A stretch of 22,648 bases of DNA, from IMG/VR virus record IMGVR_UViG_3300035703_000424, positions 1-22,648 of that record; one strand, given 5' to 3'. The translations under genes were made by a program, and so were the position numbers. Under the pieces are notes generated by a model. The model ran no database searches. It was not told the origin of the DNA and saw nothing but the letters and a program-made list of their open reading frames with translations. Positions 8,713-22,648 of this stretch are shown in pieces. Origin of the DNA: a virus. Every line of letters starts with the position of its first letter. The stretch's first letter is position 1.

Positions 8713-10542
8713 ATGGCCTTAACGAAGCCGAAATTTCAGCCTGGTGTGAACAAGGAAGGCACTGAGTACACCGCTGATGGCTCATGGTTCGATTCGGATA
8801 AGATTCGATTTCGGCAAGGCAGGCCAGAAAAGATAGGCGGCTGGCAGAAGTATTTGCCAAACTCATTTCTTGGAACTTGCCGATCCATATTTGACTGGGC
8901 CACTAATGGGTTTACGGATTACGTAGGCTTTGGAACTACGTACAAGTTTTACGTTAATCAGGGCAGCGCGTATTACGACATAACCCCGATACGAAAAACC
9001 GTAAGCCCGATGGTAAACAACCCGTTTACCAGTGGAGCAGCTGGCTCAACTTTAGTTACGGTGTCTGATAACAACCACGGGTGCGTTATCAACGACTTTG
9101 TGACTTTTAGTGGAGCCGTTGGATTCGACGGCATACCCGCTGGCGATCTGAATAAAGAGCATCAGGTTATTCAAGTTGTTAACCCAAACTCTTACGTTAT
9201 TCAGGTTGCAACGGGCTGCTCGGCAGGCTCCATATCAGGAGGCGGTGCAGCCGTAACTGCCGCCTATCAGATTAACGTCGGCCTTGATATTTATGTCTCC
9301 AGCACTGGATGGGGCGTAGGCTCGTTTGGCTCTGGCGGGTGGGGATCATCCAGTCCAATCACTGCCTCGTCTCAGTTGCGGTTGTGGTCTCAGGATAACT
9401 ACGGAAACGATCTGATATTCAATGTCAGAGGCGGCGGCGTTTATTACTGGGACGAAAGCGCAGGAACTAACACCAGAGGGGTTGACCTCTCTTCTGTATC
9501 CGGGGCATCCGACGCGCCAGTTGCAGCAACGCAAATTATGGTTAGTGAGAACGCTGGCCAAGTATTGGCGTTTGGATGCAATCCAATAGGCAGCACTTCA
9601 ATTGACCCCCTGCTGGTTCGCTGGTCCAAATCTGATAGCCCGGTGGTGTGGACTCCAACATCGACAAATGATGCCGGCGGACAACTCTTAAGCGCAGGCT
9701 CCTACATTGTTGCAGCCCAGAAAACGAAACAGGAAGTTTTGATTTTTACCGATGCTGGCATTTACAGCATGAGGTATGTCGGCTCTCCATTTGTGTATTC
9801 GTTTTCGCTTGTTTCGGACAGCTATACTTCGCTATCGCCGGGGGCAGTTTCCGAAGCAAATGGCGTTGTCTACTTCATGGATCAAGGCGGCTTTTACTTG
9901 TACAACGGAGCCGTACAGACTATGGATTGCACGGTATTGGCTTATGTGTTTTCAGACATAAACATAAACCAAGCCTATAAGATATTCTCGGCCACAAACT
10001 CCAGCTTCTCTGAAGTTACTTGGTACTACCCGTCCTCAGACTCGACAGAGGTCAATCGGTATGTAACCTATAACTACAAGGAAAACCTCTGGTACATCGG
10101 AACGATGGAGCGGACTGCCTACTACGAGTCCAACATCAAGAACTTCCCGATCGCTGCTGGCAAATCCGGTGGCAACAATTACCTGTATAGACACGAAATT
10201 GGCTATGATGCTGATGGAAGCCCGCTTACGGCTTACATTGAATCGGGCAGTTTGGAACTCGACCCGGGTCAGAGGTTTATGTTTATGTCGCGGATTATCC
10301 CCGACTTTAAGTTCAGAGGAACTACCAGTACGAATATGGTAAGCCTGATCATTAAGGGCAAGGACTACCCGCTGCAAAACCTCAATACGAAATCGACCTC
10401 TACGGTAGGCTCTTCGACTGACCAAGTTTTCGTTAGAAACAGGATGCGTCAGGCCGCTATTAGAGTTGAAAGTACTGGCCTTGGGTACGGATGGCGATTA
10501 GGCGATCTGCGTTTTGACATCAGATCGGATGGTCAACGGTAA
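8713..10542 (+). CDS. Large virion protein, putative tail nozzle / DNA-stabilising protein (609 aa)
   Basis: The protein opens ALTKPKFQPGVNKEGTEY and continues WFDSDKIRFRQGRPEKIGGW, a start I recall from conserved structural proteins of environmental short-tailed phages. The body is almost all beta strand: a Trp-Gly patch near residues 200-216 (STGWGVGSFGSGGWGSSS), then repeated strand pairs with YYWD, FTDAGIYSMRYVG and GVVYFMDQGGFYLYNG. This suits a propeller or ring-shaped tail protein. P22 gp10-like packaged-DNA stabilisation proteins and T7 gp12-like nozzles have this size and character, and either label is inference. The C-terminal part (LGYGWRLGDLRFDIRSD) is a typical closing strand set. 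Its TAA overlaps the next ATG. Confidence 0.68.
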   Translation: MALTKPKFQPGVNKEGTEYTADGSWFDSDKIRFRQGRPEKIGGWQKYLPNSFLGTCRSIFDWATNGFTDYVGFGTTYKFYVNQGSAYYDITPIRKTVSPMVNNPFTSGAAGSTLVTVSDNNHGCVINDFVTFSGAVGFDGIPAGDLNKEHQVIQVVNPNSYVIQVATGCSAGSISGGGAAVTAAYQINVGLDIYVSSTGWGVGSFGSGGWGSSSPITASSQLRLWSQDNYGNDLIFNVRGGGVYYWDESAGTNTRGVDLSSVSGASDAPVAATQIMVSENAGQVLAFGCNPIGSTSIDPLLVRWSKSDSPVVWTPTSTNDAGGQLLSAGSYIVAAQKTKQEVLIFTDAGIYSMRYVGSPFVYSFSLVSDSYTSLSPGAVSEANGVVYFMDQGGFYLYNGAVQTMDCTVLAYVFSDININQAYKIFSATNSSFSEVTWYYPSSDSTEVNRYVTYNYKENLWYIGTMERTAYYESNIKNFPIAAGKSGGNNYLYRHEIGYDADGSPLTAYIESGSLELDPGQRFMFMSRIIPDFKFRGTTSTNMVSLIIKGKDYPLQNLNTKSTSTVGSSTDQVFVRNRMRQAAIRVESTGLGYGWRLGDLRFDIRSDGQR

Positions 10543-12684: not shown

Positions 12685-15600
12685 ATGCCCAACCAGACGA
12701 TGCAAGGACTTGCCGGGATATTGGCTGAGCAGGGTCGCTATGGCGACACCATGCTGATGCACGTCGCTCCGAGCGAAGTGAAATACCTTGCCGACTTGGG
12801 CGGCATTACTGAAAACCCGATGACGGGGTTGCCGGAGGCATTTAAGTTTAGAGATGTGCTTCCATTCATAGGCTCTGCTTTCCTTGGGCCGGCCTTCAAA
12901 GCAGTGGGATTCTCCCCCGGCGTATCTAGTTTCTTAGCATCGACTGCCTCAACTATGATCGGTGGTGGCAGCCTTGAGAAAGGCATTATGTCTGGCCTTG
13001 TGAGTTCATCGCTTGGCAGACTGGGCCGTAATCTTGCCGCCACGGCTCCAGATGCGGCAGTGGATGCTGCAACTGGGCAGCCTATCGCGGATACTGGCTA
13101 CAAGTTCGGCATCTTCAAGAAGCCAGAGACAGGCACGTTCGGTTCACGATATTCAGAGGCTTTCCAATCGCCTGAGTTCAATCCTATTGAGATGGCGAAG
13201 GTGGCCACTGAAGGCGGCCTCGACAATTTCATGGAGCAACTCCAGAAGCCGGGAGTGCTGTTGCCATTGACAACGGGCCTTGGAGAACTTGCTCGTATCA
13301 ATGCCGAAGAAGATTACATCCGGCAGTACCAGAATTTCTTGACGAGCCAAGCGCAGCGCCGCAAGCAGTTGCAGACTAAATATCCGCAGATCATCCCAAG
13401 TTCAAACCCGTACTACAGACCGGGAATGGCGCGAGGCGGCACTGTGCAGCGTAAGTACGACGGATTCTCATTTGACTCCATCGGATTCGATGAATACGGT
13501 CGAGATGCAATTCTGCCGGAATATGCTATGCCGGTTGGCGTTGGCGGGTTAACTCCGATCGACGAATACGCCGCCCCGAGTGAAGAGTGGTTCTTGTGGT
13601 CAGACGGCACATATAACCGCTTGCCAGAAGGAACCGGCATCCGAACTCCGTACGATCAACTGCCTGACACATATAAGGCGGTCGATGTCCGTGGACAGCA
13701 GCCAGAAGCGGGGCCAGGAGTTCCGCTTGCTGGCGATGATGGCAGTGTTCCGGTTCGCGCAACAACGCCGCTGCCGGAAGAGCTTATCTATAACGCCACT
13801 GTTCCTGAAGTGATGCCAGTGCGTTATGAAGTTGATGAAATAATTGAGCGGCCCCCGCCGGCATCGCCACAAGAAATTGGCCAATCTCAAGAGCTTAATG
13901 TTCCGCAAGTTCTGCCTTCTCCCAGAAGAGATGAGCCTGTCGGCATATTGACGCCGGTTCCTGAAGAGCCGATCTACACTCCCCCTGTGACGCCGGCTGA
14001 TTCTCAGCCTGCTCCGGTGGATGTTAGTAACTTCTTTGTTGCCGGGGCTGATGTCCCGCAAAGCACTGGCTTTAACGAGCAGGCTCTATACGAATTAGGC
14101 GCATTGCTTAGCCAGCCAAAAACAGGCGGTCAGGTTGATGTAGCCAGAAACTTTGCTATCGGGCCGATCTCGGTTGACCCCAATGTTTCTGCAACGGTGT
14201 ACAAGCCGATTGGTCAGCCGACAGTGGAAGAGCCGCCGCAACAAACACTGGCTGATTACGGCCTCACTCAGGCCGAGGCAGATGCTATCGCTGCCAATAT
14301 GAAGCCGCTCTACTCTGACGTAGACACTGCCGCGATGGAAGCCAACTTCTTAGCTGGGCTATCCCCAGAGGAGTTGAAGGGCGTCGAGCAGATGAATGAA
14401 TACAGCAGCTTCCTGAAGAATCGCTTTGACGATATTCGTCAGGCTCTCGCTGCCAAAGATTTCGATAAGGCATTCAAGCTTGCCATCTCTGGCGACGAGC
14501 AATACATAGAGAAGTTCAACCCCGGCGAAATGACGCAGGGCATCTTCACTGCCAATATGATGAGAACTTCAGACATCTCCCAGATGGCTGGGCCGATGAC
14601 TGAAGATGATATTCGCGCCTATTACGAAGCAATGCCTGTCGATAAGGTGATCCCGCTTCTGTACCCCGGCGCGAAAGTGGGCGACTACATCTACACGATA
14701 GACAAGAACGCGGCGATGCAAAAAGACATTGCTGCTCTCAAGGCTTCGGGTGGCGTTGGATATCCCACGGCAGCTGATCAGGTTGGCATGAAGTCAACCA
14801 AGCAGAACCTAACTATCCCGCTGATCACAGTGGCGCTGGCATTTGCTGGTGTGCCATTTGCGCTTGGCGATGCAGTGGCTTCTAGCTCGATTGGTGCGAA
14901 GCTTGGCCTTGCAGGATTAAACAAGGCGGCCACTACGGCGCTTGGCTCTGCCATCATTGGGGCATCTGGCTCCGCCTTGCAGGGCGGCAGCTTCGAGGAT
15001 GCATTGAAGGCCGGCTTGATTGCTGGTGGTCTTAGCTTTATTGCTGAGACTGCATTGGGCGGAATCAAAGATGCCTACAACAACTGGGCATTGGACAATC
15101 TGCCACTCGGTGAGCAAGTCAACAATACACTCGTCACTGTCGCTGATCCCAACACGGTGATCGTGTCGGCAGTAAATCAAGCCAACAGCATTGCTCAAGC
15201 AACGACGCAGGCGGCAGCACAAGTTGCTGCTCAGCAGACAACGCAGCCTGAAGTGAAGGTGACGACTGGCAGAGATGCGATGCAGCCGTCTGCTCCTGTA
15301 ACAACTATTGTCACTCCTCCAGCTGAACCTCTTGTTCAAACCCCACTTGACCAAGTAACAGTAAGAACTGGGCCTGAGACAGCTCAACAGCCGAACGCGC
15401 CTGTAGTTGTTACCCCGCCGCCTGCTCCAGAGCAGCCTGTGGTGCAGACTCCGCTTGACCAAGTAACGGTGAGAACTGGTCCGGAAACAGCGCAGCAGCC
15501 CAATGCTCCTGTTGTTGTCCCGCCGCCAGCGCCTCCGCCTGATGTTGTTCAGCCGCCGCTTGATCAAGTGACGGTGAGAACAGGTCCTGACAAGGGCGAA

Positions 15601-16983
15601 GTGAATGCTCCCGTTAATCTGCCGCCAGCCGCAATCGAACAGCCGGTCATCCAGACTCCGCTGGATCAAGTCACTGTTACGACAGGGCCTGATAAGGCAG
15701 AGGTGAATGCGCCTGTTGTTCAGCCGCCTCCGACTCCTGTTGAGTTGGCAGCCCCTGTTGAGCAAGTCACTGTTACGACACCGCAGACGCCGCCTCAGAA
15801 GCCGGACGTGCCGGTTGTCGTGCCACCGCCTGCTCCTCCGCCGGTTATTCAAACACCGTTGGATCAGGTGACTGTGACCACGAGTCCGGATAAGTCTGAC
15901 GTTAATTTACCGACGCCGACACTGCCGCCACCGACTGCTGTTGAGTTGGCGGCCCCAGTGGAGCAAGTGACGGTAACGACTAACCCAAGAACAAATGGTG
16001 AGTTGAACGTCCCGACACCGACTGTGCCGACCACAACGCCGTTTACGCCGCCAACTGCCCCAACTCCGATCAACACTCCAGATTTGCTGGATACGTTGAA
16101 GGATAAAACGAAGGATATTTTGACGGATGCTGCGGTTGCTCAGTTGCTCGGTGCGCTGGCCGGTGGTGGTGGCGGAACCGGAACAAGCTCGACTGGTGGT
16201 GGCGGAGGGTATACCGGCACTGGTGGAACGGGAACTATTCCGGAAGGATTTGGCCGCAAGTACGTTGGCGCACCGTTTGATTATCGCCATGGGTTCTTGC
16301 CTGAGTGGATGTTCTTCTCGAACTTGAATCCGCCAGCGTCAATTGACACCACTCAACCCGGAACGACTGGTGGCGGCACTACCGGAGGCGGTGGTGGCGG
16401 CGGTCGAACCGGCGGCACGGATGATGGCACGACTCAGCAAAAGGCCATTGGTGGCGCCATCAAGTCGTACTCACCTCGTGGCTACTTGGAGATGATCCAA
16501 GGCTACAGTGAGGGCGGTGAGATAGAAGAAGCCATGATGAAAGAGTCTGGCGCTCCGATGACAGACGGCAGTCGCCAACTAATCCCGCTGACGCAGGCTG
16601 CCATCTTGGGGCAGCTTCCAGAAGGTCAGACCGATGATGTCATTCAGAAGTTCATCGATCTGCATGGCAACCGCGCCTTCCGCAAACTCCGTGAAGAAAC
16701 TCTAGAGTCTGTTGCCAACGGCAGCCGCAAGGAAGGAATGGTGGAAGGCCACACTGGCGGCATGGACGATATGGTGGATGGCGTCATTGGCAGCAGCGAA
16801 CGAGTCGCTGTATCGCCGGGCGAGTTCATCATTCCTGCCGATGTGGTCAGCATGCTCGGAGATGGGAATAGTGACTCGGGAAGGCATAAACTTGAGCAGA
16901 TGATGTCCCGGGTTCGTAAGGATAAAACTGGGTCAACCAAGCAGGCGCGACCCATTAACTCAGCCAAAGTCTTGCCTGCTTGA
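12685..16983 (+). CDS. Giant virion-associated protein with Pro-rich repeat linker (1432 aa)
   Basis: GAGAGAG at 12670-12676 lies eight bases before the ATG. Residues 20-55 hold the conserved start TMLMHVAPSEVKYLADLGG with NPMTGLPEAF. A hydrophobic, Gly/Ala rich stretch follows (about 57-115), and a second lies at about 709-795. Residues about 247-260 read MARGGTVQRKYDGF. Residues 853-1132 are an eight-unit Pro-rich repeat, then come two Gly runs (about 1155-1185 and 1220-1250). The C-terminus (from about 1266) is conserved: GGMDDMVDGVIGSSERVAVS, PGEFIIPADVVSMLGDG and KLEQMMSRVR. I recall this last block from environmental phage internal or tail proteins. Hydrophobic helices in a huge late protein suggest a DNA-ejection or tape-measure-like role, which is inference. 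Confidence 0.75.
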   Translation: MPNQTMQGLAGILAEQGRYGDTMLMHVAPSEVKYLADLGGITENPMTGLPEAFKFRDVLPFIGSAFLGPAFKAVGFSPGVSSFLASTASTMIGGGSLEKGIMSGLVSSSLGRLGRNLAATAPDAAVDAATGQPIADTGYKFGIFKKPETGTFGSRYSEAFQSPEFNPIEMAKVATEGGLDNFMEQLQKPGVLLPLTTGLGELARINAEEDYIRQYQNFLTSQAQRRKQLQTKYPQIIPSSNPYYRPGMARGGTVQRKYDGFSFDSIGFDEYGRDAILPEYAMPVGVGGLTPIDEYAAPSEEWFLWSDGTYNRLPEGTGIRTPYDQLPDTYKAVDVRGQQPEAGPGVPLAGDDGSVPVRATTPLPEELIYNATVPEVMPVRYEVDEIIERPPPASPQEIGQSQELNVPQVLPSPRRDEPVGILTPVPEEPIYTPPVTPADSQPAPVDVSNFFVAGADVPQSTGFNEQALYELGALLSQPKTGGQVDVARNFAIGPISVDPNVSATVYKPIGQPTVEEPPQQTLADYGLTQAEADAIAANMKPLYSDVDTAAMEANFLAGLSPEELKGVEQMNEYSSFLKNRFDDIRQALAAKDFDKAFKLAISGDEQYIEKFNPGEMTQGIFTANMMRTSDISQMAGPMTEDDIRAYYEAMPVDKVIPLLYPGAKVGDYIYTIDKNAAMQKDIAALKASGGVGYPTAADQVGMKSTKQNLTIPLITVALAFAGVPFALGDAVASSSIGAKLGLAGLNKAATTALGSAIIGASGSALQGGSFEDALKAGLIAGGLSFIAETALGGIKDAYNNWALDNLPLGEQVNNTLVTVADPNTVIVSAVNQANSIAQATTQAAAQVAAQQTTQPEVKVTTGRDAMQPSAPVTTIVTPPAEPLVQTPLDQVTVRTGPETAQQPNAPVVVTPPPAPEQPVVQTPLDQVTVRTGPETAQQPNAPVVVPPPAPPPDVVQPPLDQVTVRTGPDKGEVNAPVNLPPAAIEQPVIQTPLDQVTVTTGPDKAEVNAPVVQPPPTPVELAAPVEQVTVTTPQTPPQKPDVPVVVPPPAPPPVIQTPLDQVTVTTSPDKSDVNLPTPTLPPPTAVELAAPVEQVTVTTNPRTNGELNVPTPTVPTTTPFTPPTAPTPINTPDLLDTLKDKTKDILTDAAVAQLLGALAGGGGGTGTSSTGGGGGYTGTGGTGTIPEGFGRKYVGAPFDYRHGFLPEWMFFSNLNPPASIDTTQPGTTGGGTTGGGGGGGRTGGTDDGTTQQKAIGGAIKSYSPRGYLEMIQGYSEGGEIEEAMMKESGAPMTDGSRQLIPLTQAAILGQLPEGQTDDVIQKFIDLHGNRAFRKLREETLESVANGSRKEGMVEGHTGGMDDMVDGVIGSSERVAVSPGEFIIPADVVSMLGDGNSDSGRHKLEQMMSRVRKDKTGSTKQARPINSAKVLPA
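15241..16080 (+). repeat. Eight Pro-rich repeats of 32-36 codons
   Basis: Units begin near 15241, 15340, 15448, 15553, 15655, 15751, 15853 and 15952. Each carries PLDQVTVRTGP or APVEQVTVTT followed by a Pro-rich spacer (for example NAPVVVPPPAPPP). Units 2 and 3 are nearly identical at their starts, while the first and last are degenerate. It is in frame within the 1432-residue protein and probably forms a long extended linker. Confidence 0.85.
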
Positions 16984-16998: not shown

Positions 16999-18489
16999 AT
17001 GGCAGAAACAGCACCCACTAGCACTACGGTTTACCAACAGGCACTGCCTGAGTACGCCGCCCCTTATTTCGAGCGTCTGCTTCAAAGAGCAGAGACGGAA
17101 AGCCTGCAGGGCTATCAGCCCTATACAGGCGCAAGACTTGCTGACTTCACAGCGGGAGAAAGGGCGGCACAGGCTGGCATTGGAGCATTAACTCGACCAG
17201 ATCAAATTGCTGCTGCGACTGGCGTTGCTGCCAGAGCAGCGCAAGCAGGCCCAAGTGCTTTTGAGTACGCCCAAGGATATACCCCGGGATCATTCACGGC
17301 TGGGTACACGCCATCAGATGTCGCCTCCACCTACACTGCCGGACAGCTAGGCAGTCTCTACACTGCAGGCGCTTACGCCCCTCAGTATCAAGCCAGAGAC
17401 TTCACCTCGGGATACACGGCAGGAACCTTTACTCCCGGCTATCAGGCTGGCCAGTTAGGTATTGCAACCCAGTTCACTCCGGCTGCTGCAGCTGCGTACA
17501 TGACGCCGTATCAAGAGGCTGTCACTAGCGCCGCTGTTCGAGAGTTGGAGAAGGGGGCCGAGAGAGCAAGGACCGGAATCAGTCAGGCAGCCGCTCAAGC
17601 GGGTGGTCGCGGTGGATATCGTGAAGCCCTTGAGCGTTCTGAGTTGCAACGCAATGTGCTGGAGCAAGTGGGCGATGTCACTGCCAAGGGCCGTGCCGCC
17701 GCTTATGAGCAAGCACTGCAACAGTTTGAACGTGATCGTCAGGCGCAGATGCAAGGCTTCCAGCTTCAAGAGTCTGCCCGTCAGCAGCAAGCACAGCTTA
17801 ACTTCTCTGCCCAGCAAGCTGGTGAGCAGGCAAGACAGCGTGCAGCAGAACTGGGTCTCACCGCCCAGCAGCAGGCTGAAGCGGCAAGGCAGGCTGCGGA
17901 AGAATTCCGCTTGCGTGGATTTCAGGCCACTGAAGGTGCGAGGCAGGCTCAGTCCCAAATTGGGATATCGGGCTTCCAAGCGCAGGAAGGCGCACGGCAG
18001 ACGGCAGCCCAACTAGGCCTTTCCGCACAGCAATTTAATCAGCAACAAAGACAGGCTGCTGCTGAGTTGGCGGCTCGTCAGGAGGCTGCCCGTGAGGCAG
18101 CCCGTCAACAACAGTACCAGTTTGGACTGGCCGGCTTGCAGCAGGATTTGGCGGGACGTCAGCAGCAGCTGGCGGCAGCGCAGACGCTTGGCAATTTGGG
18201 ACAAACCCAGCAGGCCCTAGACGTTGAGCGGTTCGGACAGCAAGAGGCAGTGGGTCAGCGTCAACGCGCATTGAACCAAGCCTCGCTCGATGTCGGCTAC
18301 CAAGACTTCCTGAACCAGCTGGGCTACACGCAGGGGCAGTTGGGCTTCTACTCCAACATCCTTCGCGGTGTTCCGGTTCAGCCGCAGCAAACGGTTTCGA
18401 CATTCCAGCAGCAGCCGAGCCTGTTCCAGTCCACGCTAGGAGCGGGGCTGTCTGGGCTTGGGCTTTACAACGCACTTCGAGGGGGCTAA
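16999..18489 (+). CDS. Putative DNA-ejection / internal virion protein with two repeat arrays (496 aa)
   Basis: The N-terminus (residues 12-60) is helical: YQQALPEYAAPYFERLLQRA then GARLADFTAGERAAQAGIG. Residues 94-156 are seven nine-residue Tyr-Thr-Ala-Gly type repeats. Next comes a conserved block, AYMTPYQEAV (165-174) followed by AQAGGRGGYREALERSELQR. I recall such a block from phage proteins described as DNA-transfer or injection proteins, where it reads YMNPYQ and GAFGGSR. Residues 253-390 are a helical Gln/Ala rich array with Arg-Gln at exactly 18-residue spacing. The C-terminus (YQDFLNQLGYTQGQLGFYSN and GLGLYNALRGG) is helical then Gly rich. The composition and long helix suit a protein packed in the capsid and ejected with DNA. 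This role is inferred from pattern, and no enzyme motif is seen. Confidence 0.75.
   Translation: MAETAPTSTTVYQQALPEYAAPYFERLLQRAETESLQGYQPYTGARLADFTAGERAAQAGIGALTRPDQIAAATGVAARAAQAGPSAFEYAQGYTPGSFTAGYTPSDVASTYTAGQLGSLYTAGAYAPQYQARDFTSGYTAGTFTPGYQAGQLGIATQFTPAAAAAYMTPYQEAVTSAAVRELEKGAERARTGISQAAAQAGGRGGYREALERSELQRNVLEQVGDVTAKGRAAAYEQALQQFERDRQAQMQGFQLQESARQQQAQLNFSAQQAGEQARQRAAELGLTAQQQAEAARQAAEEFRLRGFQATEGARQAQSQIGISGFQAQEGARQTAAQLGLSAQQFNQQQRQAAAELAARQEAAREAARQQQYQFGLAGLQQDLAGRQQQLAAAQTLGNLGQTQQALDVERFGQQEAVGQRQRALNQASLDVGYQDFLNQLGYTQGQLGFYSNILRGVPVQPQQTVSTFQQQPSLFQSTLGAGLSGLGLYNALRGG
17278..17466 (+). repeat. Seven nonapeptide (27-base) repeats
   Basis: Tyr codons fall at residues 94, 103, 112, 121, 130, 139 and 148, exactly nine apart. 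Units read YTPGSFTAG, YTPSDVAST, YTAGQLGSL, YTAGAYAPQ, YQARDFTSG, YTAGTFTPG and YQAGQLGIA. Confidence 0.85.
17755..18174 (+). repeat. Eight exact 18-residue (54-base) helical repeats
   Basis: Arg-Gln occurs at residues 261, 279, 297, 315, 333, 351, 369 and 387, always 18 apart. The surrounding pattern is E-G-A-R-Q-x-x-x-Q-L-G-L-S-A-Q-Q. The Arg codons are CGT, AGA, AGG, AGG, CGG, AGA, CGT and CGT. Confidence 0.9.
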
Positions 18490-18492
18490 TCG

Positions 18493-19917
18493 ATGAGCCT
18501 GATTGACCAACAGAAGGACTTGGAGTCCTTTAGCGACCAGTCCTTATTGCAAGAAGCCCAACAGCCGATGCGGGGCTACCCCCCGTACCTCGTCATGGCT
18601 GAGATTCAACGCCGCCAGCAGGATCGCCAGCGGGTTGAGCGGCAGATGGCAGCCCAGCAGGAGGCAGCTCCCCCGGTCGCTCAGCAGCAGGCAGCCGCCT
18701 TTGCAGGACAGATGATGCGGGATCAGGCTATGGCCGCTCCTCAAGGCATTTCAGCCGCTATGCCGCCTCAGGCTGGCATGGGGATGGGTCAGCCTATGGA
18801 AGCTCCTATGGCTCCTCCGGAGGCCGCTGGAATCATGGGCGGCATGCCGGTTCAAGGCATGGCTGGAGGCGGGGAAGTGAAGCGGATGCAGACTGGAACA
18901 GATGTTCCAAATGATCCGCTCTATCGTTTCGGAACTTTCCTATCCAATCTCCCCTCTGCCGCTAGGCGGATGCGATCCCCTGCCGGTTTGATGCGAGAGA
19001 TCGCAGCGGCAGAAGCCGCTGGCAGAGACACTTCCGCTCTACGGGCAGAGTTAGCCGCTCTCCAAGGGCAGGCTGTCCCTGCTATCGGGGAGACTCCAGT
19101 GGCTACGCCGTCTTCGGCTCCCGCCATCACATCCGTTGCCGCTGCCCCTCGTATCCCGGGCATTGCGAATATCGTTAGCGGACAGGTCGATATGATTCGG
19201 GGAGTGCCAGTAGCGGGAGACACTGTGGCGACTCCGGCCGCTACCCCTGTCGCCCCGCAGGATGGGGTTCGCCCAACCGTAGCCAGACGCCCCGGCATCG
19301 AGGCTCTGCAGGAAGTGGCTGTCACTGGCAAACGCGCTGATGAATTCACTCCGGAGATGCTGGAGCGTTACTACCGCTATCAGCCGAACAAGGAAGAGTT
19401 CGAGAAGATGCGGCAGGCTGAATTGCTGGCCGGCCTCGGCGAAGTGATTGGTACTGCCACTCAACGCGGGGATATTGCACGCGGCTTGTCGGCGTTGACT
19501 CGTCAACAGCAGGCAGCCAATCGCGAGTTCCGCCGTGAGCAGCGCGACTTTGAGATGGGCTTGATGGGAATCAAAGAGCGTCAACGTGCAGAGCAACGGG
19601 CTGACGCTCGTGAGCTTGCAGCCATCGCTCGTGATCAGGCTCGGTTCGACACCGAGGTTCGCCTCAAACTCACTGAAATCGACATGCGTCGTCAAGCTCT
19701 GCGCGAAGAGGCTGCTGCCAGAGTGGCGGCAGCCAAGAACGATGCTGAGCGTTTGGCGATTGCGCGGCAAGCGCAGGAAAACGACGATAGCTTGTTGGCT
19801 GCTAGAGAGGACTTGCTCAAGGCGCAGTCGGAGTACTACCGAGGCAAGGGAACATCGACGCTTCCCTTGATGGGACAGGGCTTCGCCTCTGCTTCTGACT
19901 TAGAATCTGCGCTGTAA
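18493..19917 (+). CDS. Coiled-coil internal virion-type protein (474 aa)
   Basis: GAGGGGG at 18479-18485 lies seven bases before the ATG. The first 60 residues hold a conserved MRGYPPYLVMAEIQRRQQDR segment, in which a helix begins after a short GYPPYL turn; I recall this start from environmental phage structural genes. Residues 60-120 are Gln, Pro, Met and Ala rich and low in complexity. GMAGGGEVKRMQTGTD (about 121-136) resembles the MARGGTVQRKY segment of the 1432-residue protein. Residues 265-440 form a long charged helix (QQQAANREFRREQRDFEMG and the EEAAARVAAAKNDAERL segment), likely a coiled coil. The last residues are Ser/Leu rich. Position between the 496-residue protein and the large open-ended gene suggests a shared injection or internal-core complex. 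No enzyme motif is visible. Confidence 0.75.
   Translation: MSLIDQQKDLESFSDQSLLQEAQQPMRGYPPYLVMAEIQRRQQDRQRVERQMAAQQEAAPPVAQQQAAAFAGQMMRDQAMAAPQGISAAMPPQAGMGMGQPMEAPMAPPEAAGIMGGMPVQGMAGGGEVKRMQTGTDVPNDPLYRFGTFLSNLPSAARRMRSPAGLMREIAAAEAAGRDTSALRAELAALQGQAVPAIGETPVATPSSAPAITSVAAAPRIPGIANIVSGQVDMIRGVPVAGDTVATPAATPVAPQDGVRPTVARRPGIEALQEVAVTGKRADEFTPEMLERYYRYQPNKEEFEKMRQAELLAGLGEVIGTATQRGDIARGLSALTRQQQAANREFRREQRDFEMGLMGIKERQRAEQRADARELAAIARDQARFDTEVRLKLTEIDMRRQALREEAAARVAAAKNDAERLAIARQAQENDDSLLAAREDLLKAQSEYYRGKGTSTLPLMGQGFASASDLESAL
18514..18530. repeat. 7-bp inverted repeat, second copy of a shared dyad
   Basis: AAGGACT and AGTCCTT flank TGG, 21 bases into the 474-residue gene. The arms equal the inner arms of the dyad at 11195-11213, but the reading frame relative to the motif differs. 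Confidence 0.55.
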
Positions 19918-19942: not shown

Positions 19943-22648
19943 ATGGCCACATTAGTGCCTGCCAATAAAAGATCATTTCGACTGCCTGATGGCAGCACGT
20001 TGGATCTCCCTGAGCAACTCACCGAGGAAGATCGGTATCGCCTCAGATTGGATTTGGCGCAGCGGTTCCCAGATGAATACGGCTCCCTGCTTGATCCCTA
20101 TCAAACATTAGGCGGTGGGGCAGCAGAGTTCTTCAAGGGAATCCCGCGTGGCTTTGCAAGCTCCCTGATTGGAGCAGCGCAGGGCGTTGCTGGCGCTGTC
20201 ACTCCGGGTATCGACACGGAGTTTGAAACCAACCTTGCTGCCGCACAGAAGTACTTAGAAGACGAAAGCATCCTCGCTCCAGAGGAGCCGTATAAGGATT
20301 TCTTAGCTTCGAAGTTAGGCGCAGGCTTAGGTTCTGTTGCCACATACGCCATGCCGGGCGGCATTGCTAAAGCTCTTGGAGCCTCCGCCACTGGCGTAGC
20401 CGCAAGATCGGCAGGCGTTGGATTGGCAGTGGCTGGTGGTGCGGGTGAGCAAGCGCAGCGCATCCAGCAAGAGCGTGAGCTTGGCAAAGAAATTACTGCC
20501 GGGCAGGAGATCGCTGGACTCATTGGTGGTGCGGGTATCGGCGCCACTGAAATGCTGCCGATCAATCGGCTCTTCAGCAAGGTGACGCCGGAGACGGGTT
20601 CTGCACTGCTGAACATCTTCTCTCGCTTAGATAAGCGCAGCCCACTTGCTGGCTCTGTGTCTGATGACATCATGCGCCTGACGAAAGGCGCAGTCACACA
20701 AGGCGCAGCGGAAGGCTTGCAGGAAGGCTTGGCGGGTATCGGCCAGAACATCGTGAGCAATGTGGCTTACGACGCCGACATCGAGATCGGTGAGTCCTTC
20801 ATGGACGATCTGATGGTGGGTGGCGGTGTCGGTGCGATTGCGGATGTGATCGTCGATGCAATGGGTGGCCGCCGCACAGTGGCCAACAAGCTCTATCGAG
20901 ACAAGGAAGAGAAGCTCCGCCGTCAGCGTATTGACCGCTTCACGGCAGCGCAAGCAGAAGAGCTTCGCAAGCAGCGTGAAGAAGATGCGGCCAAGCGTGG
21001 GCAGCCAGCCCCCAGCGTATTGATGCTGCCGCCGCCTAGCGCCATTCCTGCTGCCCCTACTAACGAGGGCATCTACACGGTATCGCTAGCTGGCAATCCA
21101 GATCGCTTCACTCGCGTCACGGTATTCTCATCGCCTGACGGCAAGGGCGGCGTTTCGACGATGGCCTATAGCCCGGAAGGCGATGGCTATTACGACATCA
21201 CTGGCGAACTCGCCGCTGGCCGAAGCGTAGAGGATGCCGTTGCCATAGCAGCAGCTGGCGATCTTGGCATTGCCAAACCCTCCAAGGAAGTGGCAGAGGG
21301 TGTGGCGTTTGGCGCTGTACGCAAGGCTCTGAGCGTCTCCAAGGATGGAAACATCCCGGCTATTGAGCCGGCCAGAATCCTCTCTGCCATTCAAGGCGGA
21401 CGTATCGCAACGCCGAATGAAGATAGCTTCATCAAAGTGCAGTCGTTAGGCGATGGTACATTCGGCCTTGTCGATGTCATGACTGCATCACCCGTGACGG
21501 ACAAGCAGTACGCCTCCGTCAACGATGCGTTTGTGGACTTGGCTGAAATCAACAACCAGAACGCTGCCATCTCGGCAGCCAATGTGCTGCGCTTTACTGG
21601 CCTGATCGATAACAATCCTGCTTATCGTCTGGCAGCATCACTGCGATCACCGAAGAACCGACTGGTTCAGAAGTCGGTTATCTCCGCTTTCCTGCCAAAG
21701 GAAAAGCGAGTCGGCATGAAGGACTTCTACTCGCCAGAGGAAGCCAAGAAGTTACTTGGCCCGAAGGACTTCGACGAGATGATGCAAAGCTTTGCTCAGA
21801 TCACTGAGCAGAACGATTTGCTGAACAAGTACATCAAGCGAGAAGTGCTGGTTGATCCGAACTTCGCTAACAAGCGAACCATCACGGCATCTGCCCTGAC
21901 GAAACTTGGTAACGACAAGAACCTCAAGATCGACGTCAAGGATAAGGCGTTCAAAGACTACGCCAAGTACTGGACGGGGACTGAGAACTGGGGCGATATG
22001 TCTAACGGGCAACGCACCTACTTGATGACGCGCATTGCCAACACTCCCGCTATGCCGGAGACGATCAAGTTCCCGAATTTGTTCCGCCGGCAGTACAGCC
22101 GATCCCAGTTTGAATCAGTGCTGGGTGTACTTGGCACTGCCAAAGATGGCAAGACTCCGAGCCTTTCTGTCAAAGACATTCAGGCAGCCACGGGACTTTC
22201 GGATGCTGCCTCGAAGCAGCTGTACAGCGATCTGCTCTTTAGCGGCAGAGTCAAGCCAGTCGTGCCTGGGAAAATCCAACTGATCCGATCAGAGCAGGAT
22301 TACATTGCTGATCGTAAGGCTAAGGCAGCGGGACTGCTGCAGAACGAAACCGTAGAGCAGGCTGCCGCCAGAATGAGGGCGTCTGGCTTTACGGAAGATT
22401 CCGTCAAGCGTGTCGAGCAGCAGGCGAAGCAGGCAGTCACTGACCCGAAGACTCCCACTGCGGAAGTGAAGCAGGAAGCGGAGAAGCGAGAAGAGGCTGC
22501 CGTTGCGCAAGGCGCTGACCCGCAAGTTGAGCGTGTTGCCACGAACTTTGACAAGATTCTGGCTGACGCTCTGAATCGTTACGGCATTGCCAAGTTTGTT
22601 AAGTACTCGCTGAACAAGGGCGAGGCTAAAACTCGCAAGCTGCCCTCT
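19943..22648 (+). CDS. Very large injected / polyvalent-like phage protein, 3' truncated (at least 902 aa)
   Basis: The frame is open from the ATG at 19943 (GGGG at 19933-19936) to the window edge with no stop, giving 902 codons. After a short start (MATLVPANKRSFRLPDGSTL) come six Gly/Ala rich, hydrophobic helices: about 63-90 (FFKGIPRGFASSLIGAAQGV), 124-145, 156-173, 187-206, 249-273 and 291-310. A strongly charged helix follows at about 311-355 (KEEKLRRQRIDRFTAAQAEE). The part from about 375 is soluble and alpha/beta. A winged-helix-like stretch (SLSVKDIQAATGLSDAASKQ) lies near 740-776, and the part seen ends in a charged helical linker. N-terminal hydrophobic blocks before a multi-domain body are known from large polyvalent phage proteins that enter the host with DNA. 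That label is inference, and catalytic domains may lie beyond the edge. Confidence 0.8.
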   Translation, partial: MATLVPANKRSFRLPDGSTLDLPEQLTEEDRYRLRLDLAQRFPDEYGSLLDPYQTLGGGAAEFFKGIPRGFASSLIGAAQGVAGAVTPGIDTEFETNLAAAQKYLEDESILAPEEPYKDFLASKLGAGLGSVATYAMPGGIAKALGASATGVAARSAGVGLAVAGGAGEQAQRIQQERELGKEITAGQEIAGLIGGAGIGATEMLPINRLFSKVTPETGSALLNIFSRLDKRSPLAGSVSDDIMRLTKGAVTQGAAEGLQEGLAGIGQNIVSNVAYDADIEIGESFMDDLMVGGGVGAIADVIVDAMGGRRTVANKLYRDKEEKLRRQRIDRFTAAQAEELRKQREEDAAKRGQPAPSVLMLPPPSAIPAAPTNEGIYTVSLAGNPDRFTRVTVFSSPDGKGGVSTMAYSPEGDGYYDITGELAAGRSVEDAVAIAAAGDLGIAKPSKEVAEGVAFGAVRKALSVSKDGNIPAIEPARILSAIQGGRIATPNEDSFIKVQSLGDGTFGLVDVMTASPVTDKQYASVNDAFVDLAEINNQNAAISAANVLRFTGLIDNNPAYRLAASLRSPKNRLVQKSVISAFLPKEKRVGMKDFYSPEEAKKLLGPKDFDEMMQSFAQITEQNDLLNKYIKREVLVDPNFANKRTITASALTKLGNDKNLKIDVKDKAFKDYAKYWTGTENWGDMSNGQRTYLMTRIANTPAMPETIKFPNLFRRQYSRSQFESVLGVLGTAKDGKTPSLSVKDIQAATGLSDAASKQLYSDLLFSGRVKPVVPGKIQLIRSEQDYIADRKAKAAGLLQNETVEQAAARMRASGFTEDSVKRVEQQAKQAVTDPKTPTAEVKQEAEKREEAAVAQGADPQVERVATNFDKILADALNRYGIAKFVKYSLNKGEAKTRKLPS

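Follow-up and report, generated by a model that had tools for sequence, protein, structure and literature searches.

The tape measure proteins of siphophages are known to contain 11- and 18-residue repeats (PMC5099701), and 18 residues, composed of 7 + 7 + 4 (14 + 4), is a known non-heptad coiled-coil period that results in a near-straight helix (PMC9369452); because of these precedents, an 18-residue feature alone is not new. Ejection proteins of the gp14 type vary little in length, between 181 and 240 amino acids (PMC8954989). Here we describe a virion protein of a short-tailed phage in which a rod of 18-residue units is accompanied by a second array, of 9-residue units, whose length is coupled to that of the rod.

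The stretch of DNA analysed (the window) comprises 22,648 nucleotides, and its structural genes include two SU10-adaptor-like ORFs, a putative holin/endolysin-like region (named from sequence alone), a 609-aa nozzle-type protein, a 1432-aa protein and then the 496-aa protein under study; this set is the structural module of a short-tailed phage. The genes needed for the argument are:

8713..10542, + strand: nozzle/stabilisation-type tail protein, 609 aa (phrog_3287)
16999..18489, + strand: virion protein of the PHROG_4287 "DNA ejection protein" family, 496 aa (ORF; profile match)
18493..19917, + strand: next gene, 474 aa, in the place of P22 gene 20 (placed by gene order only; no family match)
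19943..22648, + strand: third gene, more than 902 aa, leaving the window, in the place of P22 gene 16 (weak match to the N-terminal part of a virion RNA polymerase)

The two adaptor-like ORFs (positions 2-520 and 873-1565) both match PF24175, the SU10 adaptor family, and are probable paralogues. The 1432-aa ORF contains Pro-rich repeats of approximately 25-30 residues at 15450-16080 (PLDQVTVRTGPE...NAPV), and its C-terminus (16700-16983, SPGEFIIPADVVSMLGDGN...) is similar to the ends of MinM2_22, DSL_48115 and gp82 of Pelagibacter phage HTVC027P, the genes of which also sit directly upstream of the gene for a PHROG_4287 protein.

The PHROG_4287 profile matches the 496-aa protein with E=1.1e-7, over its conserved N- and C-terminal parts, and also the minimal member MM2_23 of Synechococcus phage MinM2 (E=2e-19); the label holds across the relatives, minimal members included, in agreement with the ejection-type designation that the protein had received in the preliminary description. 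The PHROG_4287 gene occupies the same place in MinM2 and in phage DSL-LC04, and the small-medium-large order of the window (496, 474 and more than 902 aa) is found in both phages and in other relatives, the homologues of the third gene having 2,150-2,787 aa. Relatives of the HTVC023P type have been classed as Podoviridae (PMC9599517). From the family label and the gene order we infer that the 496-aa protein is most likely one of the three ejection proteins of a short-tailed phage.

Pfam searches assigned the protein to no family, and tblastn against annotated phages gave zero matches at E<=1e-5. No HMM match to the P22 gp7 family (PF25688) was obtained, although P22 gp7 itself does match, and hhalign against P22 gp7 gave a probability under 1%, the two belonging to separate families (phrog_598/PF25688 for gp7); homology to P22 gp7 was dropped, since there is no sequence signal. 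A sequence search of solved structures returned none, and a PDB fold search with the model nothing below E=0.001. Among the best matches of a BFVD fold search there were only uncharacterised phage proteins, which are probably relatives of the 496-aa protein. In one clade (L021, L022, L023, L026, L028, L032 and L034), a PHROG_4287-like and an apparent gp20-like protein seem to be encoded by one fused ORF of 661-1016 aa, and neither repeat array was present in those that were read. The "tail tape measure protein" of DSL-LC04 (L213:16132-18411) has several near-identical repeats of approximately 17 residues (GGPSYAGMDLSSAQGTL).

The 496-aa protein is composed of the following parts:

16999..17277, + strand: conserved N-terminal domain, residues 1-93, PEYAAPYF anchor at residue 17 (invariant alignment columns)
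17278..17466, + strand: second array, seven Tyr nonapeptides, residues 94-156, Tyr every 9 residues (repeat count; lags 9/18/27 in relatives)
17323..17403, + strand: three nonapeptides (27 aa) missing in the 85%-identical relatives L002 and L003 (gap edges within repeats uncertain)
17479..17598, + strand: predicted helix 1, residues 161-200, YMTPY anchor at residue 167 (AF2 model)
17602..17622, + strand: GGRGGYR motif, residues 202-208, where helix 1 is proposed to turn into the rod (near-invariant; break between AF2 helices at 200-206)
17755..18186, + strand: rod, eight 18-residue helical units, residues 253-396, with the Arg-Gln (RQ) ladder (repeat and phase analysis)
17776..17937, + strand: three 18-residue units (54 aa) missing in L002 and L003, coupled to the 27-aa difference (comparison with relatives)
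18295..18318, + strand: GYQDFLNQ anchor, residues 433-440, opening the conserved C-terminal domain (alignments)
18421..18486, + strand: Gly-rich, hydrophobic C-terminus (LGAGLSGLGLYNALRGG), kept in relatives

The preliminary description had reported eight RQ pairs at an exact 18-residue step, with mixed Arg codons. We recovered both: the pairs start at residues 261, 279, 297, 315, 333, 351, 369 and 387, and their Arg codons are, in order, CGT, AGA, AGG, AGG, CGG, AGA, CGT and CGT. Three other RQ pairs lie off the ladder (residues 247, 360 and 421). The span in which the ladder was noted, 17755-18174, corresponds to residues 253-392, and the lags of highest identity in the region are 54, 18 and 36. 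When the region was shuffled 5,000 times, the longest RQ chain at any step from 2 to 40 had four members, against eight at step 18 in the protein, which rules out chance or low complexity as origin of the step. Recent DNA duplication was also rejected: the 18-residue units have diverged, because any two of them have only 14-33 of 54 nucleotides in common, yet three units differ from close relatives. The differing codons had been taken as a sign against recent duplication; the divergence of the units stands, but the codons do not show the number of units to be old, given that relatives with 85% identity are without three of them.

In the 18-residue phase table, basic residues concentrate at one phase (59-79% Arg/Lys), and to that extent the Arg face proposed earlier was well founded. 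The same proposal had this stripe, on a straight helix, contacting DNA or the acidic residues of partner helices. However, Glu or Asp occupies, in 65-71% of the units, the phase three residues before the basic one, and in the window six of the eight ladder arginines have a Glu at i-3. Such an arrangement is typical of salt bridges formed within one helix, which are therefore likelier here than an exposed stripe; an Arg contact to DNA or to acidic helices is thus a doubtful reading, which moreover leaves the nonapeptides described below unexplained. The phase table also shows two seams on the rod helix, one Ala-rich and one Leu/Phe, consistent with two partners of this helix, and the 18-residue period with a hydrophobic seam is that of an 18-residue coiled coil.

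The main feature of the protein is a second array, coupled to the first, that the preliminary description missed. Tyrosines are found at residues 94, 103, 112, 121, 130, 139 and 148, at an exact 9-residue step, and a Tyr chain of seven at step 9 was absent from 5,000 shuffles. When relatives were pooled, the N-terminal array presented periods of 9, 18 and, strongest, 27 residues, and the rod periods of 18, 36 and, strongest, 54, without 9 or 27; the 27 of the strand and the 54 of the rod therefore indicate a three-unit super-period in both arrays. Three very long relatives (L267, L136 and L140; 1029-1193 aa) have about 30 nonapeptides each, a few of which have fused into stretches of 18 residues that lack the expected Tyr but keep to a multiple of nine.

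Scans of viral contigs yielded several hundred related loci, and the measured set consisted of 79 distinct proteins with all four anchors (PEYxxPYF, YMxPY, GGxGGYR and GYQDFLNQ), the rod length being the distance from GGxGGYR to GYQDF. Rods range from 91 to 688 residues among relatives, and total lengths from 287 to 1193 aa. The rod lengths fall on ladders of step 18 (for example 145, 163, 181, 199, 217, 235, 253 and 271), with a further ladder at 238, 256, 274, 292 and 310, then 364, 418, 472, 526, 580 and 688. Nearly all of the offsets between ladders (4, 7, 11 or 15 residues) are within 60 degrees of alpha-helical phase, with the exception of L017, which is 8 residues (80 degrees) off the ladder. 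Homologues with indels that break the step had been named as the test of the ladder, and in fact the rods keep 18, the few offsets mostly holding the helix phase; the earlier suggestion of a register under selection is strengthened by these family-wide ladders, beyond what one sequence shows. The spacing between the arrays, from YMxPY to GGxGGYR, is 35 residues in 77 of 77 tabulated members.

Across the 79 distinct relatives, the length of the N-terminal region follows that of the rod with a slope of 0.511 (r=0.996), i.e., 9 residues of strand are gained or lost per 18 of rod. Independent contrasts, on a tree built from conserved blocks only, gave a slope of 0.497 (r=0.997), and 52 of the 53 non-trivial contrasts had the same sign. 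Comparing proteins with conserved flanks and a C-terminal block identical at 75% or more of its positions, we found an exact 2:1 relation in 264 of the 308 pairs with different rods, 288 being within 2 residues, and one array altered alone in only 6 of 376 pairs; these pairs are related and not independent, a kinship effect that the contrasts and the disjoint pairs below reduce and do not remove. The alignments of several sister pairs contain two internal gaps and no more, of 9 and 18 residues (L066/L056, L106/L082), 18 and 36 (L074/L046), 27 and 54 (L138/L137) or 54 and 108 (L134/L131, L144/L140), and in those pairs the protein segment that separates the arrays is 96-100% identical. Relative to L002 and L003, the 496-aa protein is longer by 27 residues in the strand and 54 in the rod.

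The ratio is maintained in one clade whose units are not 9 and 18. The five members of the L037 clade have other unit sizes (14/29), with strand lags of 14/28/42 and rod lags of 29/58, and keep the 1:2 ratio (slope 0.487). In the clade of Roseobacter phage CRP-901, N-terminal units of 12 residues accompany rod units of 18 (slope 0.70); the arrays are coupled here too, but a strand extended throughout cannot account for this clade, where part of it must be helical. Exceptions to the 2:1 rule are found in the N-terminal regions of L015 (+15), L099 (about +20) and L060 (+4), without a matching rod change. Neither array is present in the minimal members MM2_23 (MinM2), WJZ48114 (DSL-LC04) and HTVC027P gp83.

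This coupling bears on two other explanations. The rod could be an ordinary 18-residue coiled coil, as in the tape measure proteins of TP901-1 and p2, which have aromatic-marked 18-residue repeats (PMC5099701), its period being a recognised non-heptad one (PMC9369452), and the N-terminal repeat could be unrelated low complexity. Unrelated arrays would not hold a 2:1 relation through 53 contrasts, so that this explanation is already contradicted and extremely improbable. It could also be that a DNA mechanism, and not selection on each protein, is at work, with whole alleles carrying both arrays swapped between phages; phage genes do recombine, and coupled alleles could spread in this way. Nevertheless, exchange spreads existing combinations and cannot make a continuous 2:1 ladder of about 40 of them, the two repeats are unlike in sequence and in unit size, and the block between them is near-identical, all of which makes allele exchange a very unlikely origin.

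A different possibility is an indirect coupling, in which each array is fitted to some external length, for instance that of a partner filament or conduit, and the two do not touch. Either array alone could act as a ruler, the size of siphophage tape measure proteins fixes tail length (PMC5099701), and the length of the downstream gp20-like gene correlates weakly with the rod (r=0.49). On the other hand, the length of the upstream gene shows no relation to the rod, and almost all relatives have a nozzle of 609-626 aa, with rods that range from 102 to 688 residues; a scaling of the rod with either was not seen. An outside length also leaves unexplained the match of indel sites and the turn offset that follow, and we consider it distinctly unlikely.

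If the two arrays run alongside each other, every unit gained in one has to be matched at the equivalent place in the other. Gap positions inside repeats are approximate; with them, the indel site in the rod, counted forward from YMxPY, equals 1.91 times the site in the strand, counted backward, plus about 64-67 residues (r=0.94-0.96 in 126 clean pairs, 42 unique events). With disjoint pairs only (18), the antiparallel fit has r=0.95. The spread about the antiparallel line is 20 residues, and the minimum in 5,000 random gap placements was 50. Fits to the parallel order gave r between -0.03 and 0.15, and this order was rejected (at most 0.15, against 0.94 for the antiparallel one). The observed offset is near that expected from a turn at GGRGGYR (about 67). 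In one class, the mutual information between units is highest at the antiparallel register expected from these fits; the parallel order scores high too, owing to conservation of the units close to the ends, so this test was not used as proof. The sequences by themselves show both repeats, the fixed relation between their copy numbers and the antiparallel match between their indel sites.

These observations lead us to propose, as the probable architecture of this ejection-type virion protein, a long hairpin in which the Tyr strand lies antiparallel along the helical rod of 18-residue units. The chain would comprise, in order, the N-terminal domain, the extended Tyr nonapeptides, helix 1, the GGRGGYR turn, the rod and the C-terminal domain. 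Helix 1 (about 161-200) would lead outward, and the rod, returning after the turn at 202-208, would reach the height of the first residues of helix 1 at about residue 248 and from there follow the extended chain in antiparallel direction up to the C-terminal domain. In an alpha helix, 18 residues are five turns of 3.6 residues and rise 27 A. Nine residues would cover the same 27 A at about 3.0 A per residue, a rise close to that of an extended or polyproline-like chain, and this common 27 A unit would account for the 2:1 ratio and the matched array lengths. The rod would then evolve in whole 27 A steps, with the strand adjusted to match.

The hairpin rests on the geometry of the indels and not on AF2, because the models are of low confidence and show the nonapeptides as disordered (pLDDT about 30-40). 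With 67 sequences, AF2 gave a mean pLDDT of 61 and a pTM of 0.31, and with 13 sequences a pLDDT of 52. Long helices were predicted at low confidence at residues 206-284, 289-331 and 346-455, with breaks at 200-206, 285-288 and 332-345, which at this confidence speaks neither for nor against the one continuous helix that the preliminary description had set as a test; the 67-sequence model showed no strand-helix contact. Direct contact in a hairpin is thus a deduction from the indels, and it could be made in a domain-swapped form, with each strand of an oligomer packed on the rod of an adjacent subunit under the same length rule. Known phage ejection proteins do form ring or tube oligomers (PMC8954989, PMC10925440), and the rod helix has a second hydrophobic seam besides the Ala-rich one; the offset, nevertheless, fits an intramolecular hairpin without extra assumptions, which makes the swap an unlikely, if reasonable, variant.

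After ejection, several copies of the hairpin may line a DNA conduit through the cell envelope. That the rod lines or extends such a conduit, or that a slim hairpin suits passage through the portal, are guesses. The longest rod, with 688 residues, would measure about 103 nm if straight. An ordinary capsid for a genome of this size has 60 nm; therefore, the longest rods would bend, form only after ejection, or belong to a protein located outside the capsid.

The maintenance of the 2:1 ratio through dozens of gains and losses constitutes a natural experiment, in which indels alone map register, direction and turn. If confirmed, a strand-on-helix fibre would join the known fibrous folds and offer a modular ruler for protein design. 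It also raises the question of which length these phages change, and why over an about sevenfold range at the same tail nozzle. Within the open-access literature searched, we found no earlier account of a single protein with two arrays whose lengths and unit order are tied together. We give about even chances to this being a new fibrous architecture of aquatic-phage virion proteins, with a strand stapled antiparallel on a single alpha-helical rod at a common 27 A repeat and a quantised, evolvable rod length between about 15 and 100 nm, the coupling occurring also as 14/29 and 12/18 in other clades.

As regards described systems, the PHROG_4287 family description makes no mention of coupled arrays, and the minimal members are without both. 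The protein resembles P22 gp7 and T7 gp14 in being encoded by the first of three genes, followed by a medium and a large one (for T7, PMC8954989), and in its Gly-rich hydrophobic C-terminus; it differs in length, the family spanning 287-1193 aa instead of being near 200 aa. The ejection proteins gp72 and gp73 of Pseudomonas phage DEV form a DNA tube through the envelope (PMC10925440), a functional analogy only, as no sequence or fold match to them was found for the 496-aa protein. Coiled coils with an 18-residue period involve helix-helix packing, and a matched 9-residue strand is not predicted there (PMC9369452). The tape measure proteins of TP901-1 and p2 are similar in having 18-residue helical repeats and a length that varies by whole repeats (PMC5099701). 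As to a role in setting the length of a long tail tube, the window encodes adaptor and nozzle-type proteins of short-tailed phages, and the nozzle is of constant length; what sets the present protein apart from those of TP901-1 and p2 is this short-tail context together with a second, extended array locked to the rod in copy number.
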